Source of the DNA: a virus
Length of the DNA stretch: 27,616 bases
IMG/VR virus record: IMGVR_UViG_3300028384_000901
Coordinates: 1-27,616 of that record
Direction: 5' to 3' (one strand)
Positions 3,770 through 6,826 of the stretch are shown in pieces. The position numbers and the translations under genes were made by a program. Every line of letters starts with the position of its first letter. Within the stretch, counting starts at the first letter, position 1. The notes below the pieces were generated by a model, which made no database searches, was not told where the DNA came from, and saw only the letters and a list, made by a program, of their open reading frames with translations.

Positions 3770-4136
3770 ATGCGATAGCCCTAGTTATACGTTTAAGAGC
3801 AAGGCAGAAGCTGAGAAAGCAGGCGGCGCTCTCGGGCTCTCAGGAAGTCACACCCACACGAACGAAAACGGAGAAACCCTTTACATGCCTGGTAAGAATC
3901 ACGAACAGTTTGAGAAGGCACAAAAGGACGGCAAGGGCATGAAGTCCAAGTTCCAGGCTGCCCGCGATGCCATGTATCAGAAGCGTCTGAAGGACATGGG
4001 TGTCAGCAAAAAAGGCAAGAAGGGCGACGGTTACAAGTACACCGACGGCCACAAGAAAAAGAAGAAGTCCCCCTACGCGGACGGTGTCGCCTCTGATGCA
4101 GGGAGTATTGGTCGGGAGTTCGACAAGTTTCTCTGA
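3756..4136 (+). CDS. Small basic virion protein with a YMPG-type domain
   Basis: This 126-residue protein overlaps the end of the Mu-F gene by 14 bp and has an AAGGA ribosome-binding site just before its ATG. Residues ~10-50 contain KAEAEKAGGALGLSGSHTHT and ETLYMPGKNH, a pattern I remember as a recurring small domain in phage head-module proteins. The second half is very rich in lysine and glycine (KKGKKGDGYKYTDGHKKKKK) and is likely disordered, ending in GREFDKFL. Its place in the head operon suggests a capsid-associated, possibly DNA-contacting protein. The exact role is unknown. Confidence 0.65.
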   Translation: MHKGKCDSPSYTFKSKAEAEKAGGALGLSGSHTHTNENGETLYMPGKNHEQFEKAQKDGKGMKSKFQAARDAMYQKRLKDMGVSKKGKKGDGYKYTDGHKKKKKSPYADGVASDAGSIGREFDKFL

Positions 4137-4143
4137 CTAGGTC

Positions 4144-4800
4144 ATGCCTGAGCTGCCGGACTTTCAGTTACCGGACATCAGGCTGCCTGACCGGCTCAAA
4201 TTGCCTGAACCGGTCATAGCTGAACCCAAAATTGAATATCCTGTTGTCTTAATCCCTTCGGTTACTGACCGAAGGGCAACTTTCCGCCCGCAGAAGGTAA
4301 CTCCAAAGGCACCGAAGGCAGGTCCACCTCCGGGAGAGAATCAACCGAAGGAAGCTCAGGAATCGCCTCCAGATCCGGTAGAGGAGGTAGTAGATCAGAT
4401 ATTAGATTTTGTAGAACCAGCCCTGTCAGCACAGTCGGCGTCATTACGCCTATTAGAAGGCCGTATAGAAACACTAAGGGACGACGTAAAAGTAGAGATA
4501 GAACGAATCGAGGAGACATTTGAGAATAAGGAGATAACAGAAGTGACTTTGCCGCACATGGGTTGGGTTATACCCATGCCCAAGGCGGAGATTCTTGTTG
4601 CTGCAGGTACTACAGCTGGCGTGAGTGTCGCGGCCACACTGACGGCGACGGCTGTATTTAAGAAAGCGGTATCAGCCTTAAAGCCTGTAATTACTCAAGT
4701 GGTGAAACGGGTTCGAGCGCGTCTCGGGAAGCCTGGCCCGACTTGGAGTAGGCAGCGATTGGCACAACGTCATCACAGATTTTCGCGTAAGGCGAACTAG
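4144..4800 (+). CDS. Proline-rich protein with a membrane segment (cyanophage-like)
   Basis: The 218-residue product has three parts. Residues ~1-85 are repeat-like and proline-rich (PELPDFQLPDIRLPDRLKLP). Residues ~86-125 are predicted coiled coil. The C-terminal third has PHMGWVIPMPKAEILVAAGT running into a hydrophobic stretch near 145-170 and then a very basic tail. I recall cyanophage proteins with the same order (Pro-rich, then 'IPMP.AEI', then a hydrophobic segment ending in a basic tail), function unknown. It lies 7 bp after the previous gene. Its last 110 bp overlap, on the opposite strand, the end of the secreted-protein gene at 4691. Possible roles include a membrane-penetrating virion protein or an envelope-interacting protein; neither is established. 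Confidence 0.65.
   Translation: MPELPDFQLPDIRLPDRLKLPEPVIAEPKIEYPVVLIPSVTDRRATFRPQKVTPKAPKAGPPPGENQPKEAQESPPDPVEEVVDQILDFVEPALSAQSASLRLLEGRIETLRDDVKVEIERIEETFENKEITEVTLPHMGWVIPMPKAEILVAAGTTAGVSVAATLTATAVFKKAVSALKPVITQVVKRVRARLGKPGPTWSRQRLAQRHHRFSRKAN
4254..4276. repeat. 9-bp perfect inverted repeat with 5-nt loop
   Basis: CCCTTCGGT at 4254-4262 pairs perfectly with ACCGAAGGG at 4268-4276 across the loop TACTG. It lies within the proline-rich gene. Neither strand has a T-run directly after the stem, so it is not a classical intrinsic terminator. Confidence 0.6.
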
Positions 4801-5212
4801 GTCGGATCATGTATCCAGCGTCGTAAAGCTTGGTGCATTCACGCATTCTGGTCAGAAGAATATCAACCCTAGTTTTCTGAATTTTCTTCTTTGCCACCTC
4901 TTTACAGAGTTCAGTTATTGAGCCGTCGAGAGGGACGCTAAAAGAAATCTGAGCACCAAAATTCTGGTTTCTGGTGTACTTTGTTGAATGAACATCAGCA
5001 CCGAGATAAAACGGTGTAAATACAATAGTGCCACTATTGCAGTAATGGCCACCACCGAATCCTTGGGTTGAATAAGATCCTTGATTGATTTGAACTGCAC
5101 TGTTAGTCACTGACCCGCTTGAGGACGCCTGAGGGCTTGCGACGACAGTAGTCCCATCAGATTCAGCTCTGACAGGACTACATATCATCGCTAGAGCCAG
5201 AAGTATTTTTAC
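4691..5212 (-). CDS. Secreted four-cysteine protein, start codon uncertain
   Basis: The minus-strand frame is open from well upstream to a TAA at 4691-4693. The clear protein signal begins with K-I-L-L-A-L-A-M-I-C-S-P-V-R-A-E, a signal peptide, followed by a mature part with four cysteines (58, 103, 126 and 146 counting from 5212). It is similar in my memory to a cyanophage secreted family. The codon in the initiator position is GTA (5210-5212), not a normal start. It overlaps the TAA stop of the preceding gene. The first standard ATG is at 5188, inside the signal peptide, and a CTG lies at 5200. From 5212 the product would be 173 residues; from 5188, 165. The 3' end overlaps the convergent gene ending at 4800. 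Confidence 0.6.
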   Translation of the reverse strand, partial: VKILLALAMICSPVRAESDGTTVVASPQASSSGSVTNSAVQINQGSYSTQGFGGGHYCNSGTIVFTPFYLGADVHSTKYTRNQNFGAQISFSVPLDGSITELCKEVAKKKIQKTRVDILLTRMRECTKLYDAGYMIRPSSPYAKICDDVVPIAAYSKSGQASRDALEPVSPLE

Positions 5213-5568
5213 TGGCTGAATACGGAAAGGCTGGTGATGGTGCTGGTGGTTTCGATGGTCCTTTCGATGTCTTGCGTTTCGATAATTCCAGCAGCCCGAG
5301 TAGTGATCTCCAGTTGCCAGTTTTCTGCTCCGCTGTTCATCGAATAGGTTGTGCCAGTTGCTCCAATAGCCCCACTGGGAGTCACGTTGTGACCCGAGTA
5401 GGTGTTTACTGCAGCGCCGTACTTCTCGATCGCGATAGTTTCTGTAATCGTTTGTTCCGTCTCGGTCGTCGAGTTCATCGAGCCTTGACTGAAGCCCATA
5501 TTTGATTGAGCTGCTGCACTCATGGGAGTGAGCAACATAATAAGTGTTAGCCAACGTAGTGGTTTCAC
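5209..5568 (-). CDS. Secreted protein ending in FSQ (cyanophage-like)
   Basis: The 119-residue product begins with a clear signal peptide: MKPLR, a hydrophobic core (WLTLIMLLTPMSA) and an AAAQ cleavage region. The mature protein starts with SNMGFSQGSMNSTTETEQ, is rich in Thr/Ser and beta-prone, has no cysteine, and ends in TITSLSVFSQ. I remember cyanophage proteins with the same beginning and the same ending. It has no lipobox, so it is probably soluble in the periplasm or surface-associated. Its ATG overlaps the stop of the upstream membrane-protein gene (ATGA at 5565-5568), and its stop overlaps the start region of the next secreted protein. The three genes look like one coupled unit. Function unknown. 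Confidence 0.7.
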   Translation of the reverse strand: MKPLRWLTLIMLLTPMSAAAQSNMGFSQGSMNSTTETEQTITETIAIEKYGAAVNTYSGHNVTPSGAIGATGTTYSMNSGAENWQLEITTRAAGIIETQDIERTIETTSTITSLSVFSQ

Positions 5569-5819
5569 TTGGCTTTTGGTGTTGAAGTGGGCTCTTCAAT
5601 TTTAGATTTTTTCTGTCCACTTTTTTCAGCAGCGCGACTGATTCCATACCCGGCTAAGGAGCCAGAGAAGACCGAGGCAATAAATGTGGGATCCATCTTT
5701 TGGAAAAAACCCATATATGAGAGTGTCAACAACGCAGCTGACCAGCTCAATACAGAGACTTTGACTAATTCAGACAGCCACTCATACGATTGTTCAGTTT
5801 TTTCTGTGTTGTCATCCAT
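5565..5819 (-). CDS. Small two-helix membrane protein, holin candidate
   Basis: The 84-residue product has two hydrophobic segments: roughly residues 14-39 (ELVKVSVLSWSAALLTLSYM) and 44-62 (PTFIASVFSGSLAGYGIS). The C-terminus is charged and hydrophilic (EKSGQKKSKIEEP). This layout fits a class II holin, which makes the hole in the inner membrane at lysis, and I recall cyanophage proteins with the MDPTFIASVFSG string. No endolysin is present in the window, so lysis remains a guess. A good ribosome-binding site (AAGGGTGA on the minus strand, about 10 nt upstream) supports the ATG. It is the first gene of the minus-strand trio. Confidence 0.65.
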   Translation of the reverse strand: MDDNTEKTEQSYEWLSELVKVSVLSWSAALLTLSYMGFFQKMDPTFIASVFSGSLAGYGISRAAEKSGQKKSKIEEPTSTPKAK

Positions 5820-5872
5820 GGCAAAATATCACCCTTACTTAGATTAAAATATGATTGACTTTGGATATTGAT
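5820..5872. promoter_or_regulatory. Short divergent intergenic region
   Basis: About 53 bases separate the start of the minus-strand trio (5819) from the plus-strand basic-protein gene. The region is AT-rich and holds the minus-strand ribosome-binding site. A promoter for the minus-strand unit must lie here or inside the next gene. No consensus -35/-10 pair stands out; TTAAAAT near 5844-5850 is the nearest -10-like string for the plus strand. Confidence 0.3.
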
Positions 5873-6382
5873 ATGAGCAAGTTCCGTGACAAAGCGCTCC
5901 ATGCTCGCGCAGTCGCGGCAGCTAAGCGTAAGTTCAAAGTCTGGCCTAGTGCGTATGCCTCAGGCTTTATGGTTCAGACCTATAAACGCCTTTACAAGAA
6001 AAAGCACGGCTCATTGTCAGGTGCTTTCCGAGGTGATGATCTAGGCAAGTGGTTTGGAGAGAAGTGGGTGCGCATCACTTCCTCCGGCGGCATTGCAGGT
6101 CCCTGTGGCGGCCGTAGCAGCAAAGAGGGCAAGCCGAAGTGTTTGCCTCGCGCCAAAGCTCAGTCACTGTCTACCGCCGAGCGAAAAAGGTTGGTAGCGA
6201 GAAAGCGAGCCAAGGACCCAAATCCGAATCGGCGTGGAAAAGCGATTATGACAAGTAGCAAACCGGATAGTGATGCTGTCAGGCTCTCAAAGATGGCTAA
6301 GCAATCAAGAACCAAGGATCCAAAGGTTCGCGAACGCCTGGCTAAACTTATGGACGCCTATCGTAAGCAAAACAGCTACTAG
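5873..6382 (+). CDS. Basic small phage protein (DUF5872/DUF6321-like)
   Basis: The 169-residue product is rich in Lys and Arg with no membrane segment. Residues ~1-35 (KFRDKALHARAVAAAKRKFK then VWPSAYASGFMVQ) and ~50-95 (GKWFGEKWVRI, then a Gly/Cys turn GPCGGRSSKEGKPKCLP, then SLSTAERKR) match a group of small phage proteins that I associate with the names DUF5872 or DUF6321; I am not sure which label applies. The two cysteines in the CGG..KPKC turn could bind a metal. Similar short basic modules are often near head genes. The ATG at 5873 is preferred; a TTG at 5855 would add six residues. Neither has a strong ribosome-binding site. Confidence 0.65.
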   Translation: MSKFRDKALHARAVAAAKRKFKVWPSAYASGFMVQTYKRLYKKKHGSLSGAFRGDDLGKWFGEKWVRITSSGGIAGPCGGRSSKEGKPKCLPRAKAQSLSTAERKRLVARKRAKDPNPNRRGKAIMTSSKPDSDAVRLSKMAKQSRTKDPKVRERLAKLMDAYRKQNSY

Positions 6383-6418: not shown

Positions 6419-6826
6419 TTGCCTGCGGTCAGCTCCCCATTTACTGGTGCTTTAGGAGAAACTGCGTTTCAGCAGCACTTTCTCTCTGAGGGTCGTTTCA
6501 TGGCGGCCCCGATATTTGACCTATGGAAGACCGACTTCGTGATGGAGTGGGAAGGTCGGCTGGTGAAAATCAATGTGAAGACGATGAGTAAGGCCCCAAA
6601 CGCCTTTCACGTCACGTTGCAGACCGGTGGTGCGACCAAGCGTCGTTTGTACCGGGAAGGCGAGATCGATTACTTCGGGATCGTCAACTTGGAGTACGAC
6701 CATATATGGATGGTGCCGTTGGAAGCGGTTGCCCACAGAACGTTGGTTTCGTGGATACCAGACTCAAAACGGAAAAATAGAATATCTCGACGCGCTTTTA
6801 AGTGGGATCAATACCTCATTAAGTAA
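6419..6826 (+). CDS. PD-(D/E)XK nuclease-like protein (possible homing or resolvase type)
   Basis: The 135-residue product shows the core of the PD-(D/E)XK fold: a helix with ALGETAFQQHFL (Glu14), then a strand with TDFVMEW (Asp39), then KINVKT (Asn52-Val-Lys54) as the x-x-K strand. The later RLYREGEIDYFGIVN and DHIWMVPLEAV strands also fit the family. The nearest relatives I know are the PDDEXK_5 group, which includes the cyanobacterial homing endonuclease I-Ssp6803I, and Holliday-junction-resolvase-like proteins. The start is TTG at 6419; the next ATG at 6500 would remove the Glu14 helix. An ACAGGAG motif lies ~17 nt upstream, a long spacing. It sits between two head genes, an unusual place for a nuclease. 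Confidence 0.65.
   Translation: MPAVSSPFTGALGETAFQQHFLSEGRFMAAPIFDLWKTDFVMEWEGRLVKINVKTMSKAPNAFHVTLQTGGATKRRLYREGEIDYFGIVNLEYDHIWMVPLEAVAHRTLVSWIPDSKRKNRISRRAFKWDQYLIK

Follow-up and report, generated by a model that had tools for sequence, protein, structure and literature searches.

A mobile set of four small envelope-aimed genes, probably a lysis cassette, in a marine picocyanobacterial siphovirus and unrelated cyanophages

Four genes at one locus of a siphovirus head module

The stretch of DNA analysed here (the window) is a 27,616-base IMG/VR record (IMGVR_UViG_3300028384_000901) that encodes head and tail proteins of a phage of siphovirus type, with detectable tape measure and minor tail protein L domains and a major capsid protein that is 56% identical to its homologue in Synechococcus phage S-CBS4. 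An initial annotation described three minus-strand genes at 4691-5819, surrounded by plus-strand head genes, and all three frames are borne out: they match PHROG or Pfam families, always with an E value of 2e-19 or lower, and are genuine genes, which we call g1, g2 and g3. Their grouping stands, although its limitation to three genes does not. The minus-strand genes were described as converging on a plus-strand membrane-segment protein, with which g3 does overlap, and this convergent gene (4144-4800) is a fourth member. The set is thus one of four small envelope-aimed proteins, g1, g2, g3 and a gp164-like protein, arranged as follows.

4125-5873: inserted unit, missing from the same site in sibling siphoviruses
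5565-5819, minus strand: g1, 84 aa, DUF6450 (PF20048), phrog_721 and phrog_21865; proposed holin
5209-5568, minus strand: g2, 119 aa, phrog_650, Thr/Ser-rich, predicted to be exported; proposed outer-membrane component
4691-5320, minus strand: g3, predicted to be exported, four cysteines, phrog_1755/848; end certain, start tentative
About 4691-5164, minus strand: mature part of g3
5320-5318, minus strand: tentative CTG start of g3, codon -37
5328-5331, minus strand: GGAG, possible ribosome-binding site, 7 nt before the tentative CTG start
4144-4800, plus strand: gp164-like gene, 218 aa, Pro-rich, with a C-terminal membrane segment and a basic tail, phrog_9426
4691-4800: tail-to-tail overlap of g3 and the gp164-like gene, 110 bp

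A further signal-peptide gene had been read at the left edge (1-192), where the window edge cuts the frame; it has no PHROG match and its Pfam match is weak and below the cut-off. We reject this frame as another exported protein, as its counterpart in locus L121 has a stop shortly upstream (by eye). Elsewhere in the window, the head module encodes a PD-(D/E)XK endonuclease-like protein at 6419-6826 (PF11645, 36 bits versus 26.1), and the portal protein (528-2582) has a C-terminal extension that matches phrog_7595, elsewhere a family of its own. The gene at 5855-6382 has homologues in diverged siphoviruses (L034, L052, L070 and L082), where the frames are larger or the distances differ.

The set moves as a unit

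Sibling siphoviruses have the same site without the inserted unit, and the set moves as a unit. In one of them (L042), the alignment with the window ends at 4124 and restarts at 5874, with 9 bp in between, and at the empty site of another (L020) 2 bp remain. In L023 the two flank alignments overlap slightly, and the flanks of L041 and L025 are looser. Among 80 loci of relatives with similar capsids, many of which are too short to judge, only L012, L013 and L015 carry genes of the set, and neither g1 nor g3 was found in the sequence examined from 17 capsid-similar records, mostly fragments, that include S-CBS4.

Two predicted membrane proteins

The product of g1 has two hydrophobic segments of moderate hydropathy (1.56 and 1.16) with a short uncharged loop, and scores 69.6 bits against DUF6450, for a curated cut-off of 25. 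A hairpin with an uncharged loop and a positive C-terminus is predicted from hydropathy and charge, with moderate scores, in 8 of the 8 g1 homologues examined. The g1 of P-SCSP1d, missed by a 19-residue hydropathy scan at a threshold of 1.6, scores 31.5 bits against DUF6450.

The gp164-like protein found nothing in phages by tblastn, and its relation to T4-like cyanophages is visible only by profiles, with which the window-type and T4-type gp164 families match over 76 columns (probability 96.5, E 1e-9). Its tail-to-tail overlap with g3 is common to T4-like cyanophages and several IMG/VR groups.

Two predicted exported proteins

The start codon of g2 is a GTG that overlaps the g1 stop as GTGA, and its product, which appears by eye to begin with a signal peptide, matches PHROG 650 (E 1.7e-24); this family gives weak second matches in P-HM1 and P-SSM2. 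The g3 product matches PHROG 1755 and 848 (E 7.2e-40 and 1.1e-37, respectively) and has the leader of an exported protein, with a conserved AxA-type cleavage site, followed by four cysteines that are invariant in 48 sequences. Failure of these two proteins to be exported had been named beforehand as an outcome against the initial reading; conservation of the g2 leader among homologues, as of that of g3, predicts that both are exported.

No resemblance of g2 or g3 to known lysis proteins was found in PHROG, Pfam and solved-structure searches. Against the sequences of solved structures, the g3 profile found no relative (best match E 0.19) and neither did that of g2, for which the best matches were 'Cake' proteins, with E values of at least 0.001 and no stretch passing alone. 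The structural model of g2 (mean pLDDT 83) has two strands of 23 and 24 residues. Foldseek returned 0 matches to it at E ≤ 0.001, and weaker fold matches (best Z 3.9) are mostly to long hairpins, such as the stems of pore-formers and the FliF flagellar ring, and include phage collar and tail proteins. A beta-pore model for g2 is only suggestive. For g3, a fold like the coat protein of single-stranded RNA phages was discarded, with a Z of 4.1 or less that is not meaningful for a model with a mean pLDDT of 66.5 and a pTM of 0.39.

Members of the set in T4-like cyanophages are accompanied by an extra gene for a predicted exported Ser/Thr-rich protein, gp167 (phrog_564), which precedes g2, has no profile match to it and is a possible fifth component. 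Genes of this type were located at three loci.

L004, 9027-9521: gp167-type gene
L231, 4997-5557: gp167-type gene
L241, 4432-4932: gp167-type gene

The hidden start of g3

As a gene for a secreted four-cysteine protein g3 holds up. No ATG, GTG or TTG lies just before the leader and the frame reaches back into g2, so that a normal start cannot be assigned. Such codons are missing near the leader in many loci, the T4-like members have an ATG at g3 codon -55, and for KBS-P-1A, P-SSP7 and P-SSM5 GenBank places the start downstream of the leader. At all junctions examined, g3 is in the minus-1 frame relative to g2 and overlaps its 3' part, except in P-SCSP1d, where g3 lies in the other frame and has an ATG start. 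A shared start at codon -37 was considered and set aside, as an NTG at this position follows from a conserved Trp codon of g2 and proves little.

In 29 of 33 distinct genes, the open stretch in the minus-1 frame of g2 exceeds in length that of synonymous shuffles (p ≤ 0.05), compared to 0 of 33 for the plus-1 frame. In a larger set of loci, it does so in 93 of 106 genes compared to 2 of 106, although these counts do not represent independent trials because the sequences are related. The minus-1 frame of g1, used as a control, exceeds shuffles in 0 of 84 genes, and that of gp164 in 11 of 90, which is above the 5% expected. The minus-1 frame of g2 therefore stays open more often than chance would allow, and g3 is probably produced either from a start within g2 or through a frameshift.

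A programmed minus-1 frameshift would yield a g2-g3 fusion rather than a protein with its own internal start. Both the frame bias in the larger set and the many loci that have no ATG, GTG or TTG near the leader agree with this, but g3 retains a cleavable leader of its own, pointless within a fusion, and inspection of the junctions by eye revealed no conserved slippery heptamer. With the ATG starts of P-SCSP1d and the T4-like members also speaking against it, we regard a frameshift as rather unlikely and consider that translation of g3, in the minus-1 frame of g2, probably begins at a start within g2.

The four genes occur together across cyanophages

When 50,697 phage records were searched with tblastn, g3 was found in 466, g1 in 443 and g2 in 51, the last being seen in few records because it has diverged and is poorly detected in pairwise comparisons. 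The organism names tallied for the matched records are those of phages of Synechococcus and Prochlorococcus and of cyanophages, with some few labelled 'marine' or uncultured, which confirms the statement in the initial annotation that cyanophages have similar proteins with no assigned role. In the literature that we searched, no function was found assigned to the families of the set, and the terms DUF6450 and DUF6322 were not met.

We fetched 123 g3 loci, comprising 30 loci, 79 new ones from the best 80 of 588 relatives, and 14 from genome collections. Of these, 66 include no less than 2.0 kb upstream and 1.5 kb downstream of the g3 end; 56 are too short and one has no profile match. All four genes are present in 65 of the 66 flanked loci, the exception (L230) having no g1 in the fetched piece. 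Five gene orders occur among the 65: gp164, g1, g2, g3 in 36 loci, g1, g2, g3 against gp164 in 24, and the remainder in 5. Separate searches for g1, g2 and g3 in 19 named cyanophages, both podoviruses and myoviruses, found all three in 12 and none in 7 (S-CBS4, Syn5, P-SS2, Pf-WMP4, S-PM2, Ma-LMM01 and P60). The families had been expected beforehand to lie apart in most genomes if the grouping was mistaken; they are together in nearly every flanked locus and all-or-none in 19 of 19 named records.

In S-TIM5 all three genes are present, with g1 roughly 143 kb from g2 and g3 in the deposited record, and tblastn additionally detects g3 in P-SSM4, P-SSM7, S-SSM7, S-SM2 and P-RSM4. S-CAM7 (L008) has a partial g3 relative and no other gene of the set. 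The set was met only in phage-like contigs, and the 14 matches from genome collections are short contigs from metagenome-assembled or single-amplified genomes (MAGs or SAGs), or long contigs of phage size. Cyanophage-like contigs (L221-L234) lie in MAGs and SAGs named Neomarinimicrobiota, Flavobacteriaceae, Euryarchaeota and others, a placement that probably reflects binning errors or infected cells.

In T4-like cyanophages, where g1 is gp161, g3 is gp165 and g2 is gp166, next to gp164 itself, the set sits between regA and hsp20/DNA polymerase, which is not an obvious late region. In the T7-like P-SSP7, KBS-P-1A and AP013539, gp164, g1, g2 and g3 lie on one strand between the tail-fibre region and the terminase, and P-SCSP1d has the order of the window, with g1, g2 and g3 against gp164. 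A position after tail-fibre genes, together with the phage tail and collar proteins among the weak fold matches of g2, could suggest that the exported proteins are components of the virion or tail that lie near membrane genes by chance. This is very unlikely, as components of a virion that is put together in the cytoplasm would not be expected to carry cleavable export leaders, and the set is unchanged across podovirus, siphovirus and myovirus backbones.

Coupling of g1 to endolysin genes in some relatives

In two loci (L147 and L240), g1 and a GH24 (+ C39) endolysin gene share an ATGA overlap, while g2 and g3 are directed away from them. In L268 the endolysin gene is followed directly by g1, g2 and g3, all four running the same way and either overlapping or separated by roughly 10 nt. 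In loci of the L144 type, a gene for a GH24 lysozyme + C39 endolysin is found roughly 0.5 kb upstream of g1, in the same orientation. A C39-like gene that overlaps g1 in L231 has no Pfam match but is similar to the L144 protein (blastp E 1e-7), and this strand also carries a GH24 gene. In total, 18 distinct contigs, most of them near-identical within a few groups, have GH24 and genes of the set in one fetched piece, and 15 contigs have a C39-like gene without GH24. In the L144 endolysin family, 44 of 55 loci have no gene of the set in the fetched piece, some of them being truncated. Searches of 31 whole records detected GH24 in 5 and C39 in 10 (7 above the cut-off), but neither in any of the nine named records (T4-like, T7-like and S-CBS4), and endolysin adjacency is therefore confined to some relatives. 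No endolysin was found among the 20 window proteins scanned, and no lysis gene is annotated in the complete genomes of P-SSP7 and P-SCSP1d, the latter of which encodes a gp15-like internal virion protein of 953 residues that contains an SLT_3 domain.

Lysis, superinfection exclusion and surface modification had been left open as candidates for the set, and lysis is favoured by the translational coupling of g1 to endolysin genes in L147 and L240 and by the endolysin gene directly before g1, g2 and g3 in L268. If the whole set served superinfection exclusion or modification of the cell surface, it would be expressed before lysis and be unrelated to it. Its place near replication genes in T4-like phages, its own strand in the window and its absence from some phages of the same host genera, Synechococcus and Prochlorococcus (S-CBS4, S-PM2, Syn5, P60 and P-SS2), are consistent with such a role. 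We nevertheless consider it very improbable, given the coupling to endolysin genes and a near-universal retention in many T4-like and T7-like cyanophages that suits a core function better.

A narrower alternative makes g1 alone the lysis protein, a holin, and g2, g3 and gp164 an envelope device that travels with it and blocks superinfection, changes the surface or frees progeny from debris. In its favour, g2 and g3 are predicted to be exported and are unlike known lysis proteins by sequence, g1 is far from them in S-TIM5, and g1 and the g2-g3 pair occupy opposite strands in L147-type and T4-like phages, where their transcripts are therefore separate. Yet in 19 of 19 records the presence of g1 predicts that of these two genes, and the uninterrupted run from endolysin to g3 in L268 also argues against this alternative, which we judge quite unlikely.

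A lysozyme-like protein of P-SS2 (L319, 7303-8529) has relatives in S-CBS4 and S-PM2, which do not carry the set, and weakly in S-ShM2, which does; it is possibly an alternative lysis gene, and was not found in Syn5 or P60, also without the set. With a weak match beside the set in S-ShM2 and none in Syn5 or P60, this distribution does not amount to a clean exchange of lysis systems.

A proposed route through the cyanobacterial envelope

How marine cyanophages open a Gram-negative envelope is a standing question, and their lysis of the host governs carbon release in the ocean. According to the available part of a 2018 survey, 20 Prochlorococcus and Synechococcus phages are among 91 without spanins, for which a fragile outer membrane was suggested and the question of an alternative route was raised (Kongari et al. 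2018, PMC6139136). We tested 17 cyanophages from its spanin-less table (PMC6139136), and 11 carry g1, g2 and g3 while 6 do not. A 2025 survey, as far as its available text goes, likewise describes cyanobacterial phages without spanins and an endolysin-only pattern in Kyanoviridae (PMC12596118).

We propose that the set is probably the lysis cassette of a marine picocyanobacterial siphovirus, of a type common to unrelated cyanophages, in which g1 is the holin and g2, g3 and gp164 replace the spanins; the functions of all four proteins are predicted ones. Judging by its topology and the coupling to endolysin genes, g1 would form a two-helix hairpin with both ends in the cytoplasm and open the inner membrane. 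Gene neighbourhood suggests that the wall would then be degraded by a peptidoglycan hydrolase encoded elsewhere or, in some relatives, beside g1. Their leaders would send g2 and g3 to the periplasm, the C-terminal segment of gp164 may hold it in the inner membrane while its Pro-rich arm extends outwards, and the three together would break the outer membrane in place of spanins.

If this proposal is correct, the set explains the spanin gap and supplies the so far missing outer-membrane step. Possible stand-ins for spanins put forward in the available part of the 2018 survey are type I inner-membrane proteins, with a C-terminal membrane segment, and outer-membrane proteins, which gp164 and g2 resemble (PMC6139136). 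More speculatively, g2 could form pores from the inside, its exported hairpins assembling into outer-membrane beta-barrels, with g3 as a disulfide-held partner and gp164 coupling them to holin-triggered collapse. We regard this version as unlikely; if true, a g2 pore would add to spanins and membrane-active endolysins a third way of disrupting the outer membrane, one exchanged among cyanophages that are otherwise unrelated and with g3 concealed in an overlapping frame.

Comparison with known lysis systems

In resemblance to class II (two-helix) holins, g1 is small, with two predicted membrane segments of moderate hydropathy, a positive C-terminus and, in some relatives though not in the window or the nine named records, coupling to a GH24 endolysin; unlike them, it matches no holin family in PHROGs or Pfam, and its function here is predicted. 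In T7, the holin and spanin genes (17.5/18.5/18.7) are located between the tail-fibre and terminase genes. The set occupies the same interval in T7-like cyanophages, although similarity of sequence to annotated lysis families was not detected. The gp161-gp167 block (T4-GC) of cyanomyoviruses (gp161, gp164, gp165 and gp166 in syn9) contains homologous genes with the same gp164/gp165 overlap, but differs from the window in that g1 is three genes off and on the other strand, gp167 precedes g2, and the genes are annotated as hypothetical.

Compared with the Rz/Rz1 spanins of phage lambda, as presented in the available part of the 2018 survey, g2 and g3 similarly come last in the proposed lysis cassette, overlap in different frames and would act at the outer membrane, and the annotated starts of g3 are often wrong, as are those of spanin genes (PMC6139136). 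In contrast to Rz/Rz1, g2 and g3 have cleavage sites of the AxA type at the ends of their leaders, with no lipobox or conserved cysteine (by eye), and the set has no coiled-coil i-spanin with an N-terminal transmembrane segment, that of gp164 being C-terminal. Whereas gp164 has no N-terminal cysteine or lipobox and would depend on its partners g2 and g3, it shares with unimolecular spanins of the T1 gp11 type a long, predicted extracytoplasmic stretch followed by a C-terminal membrane segment.
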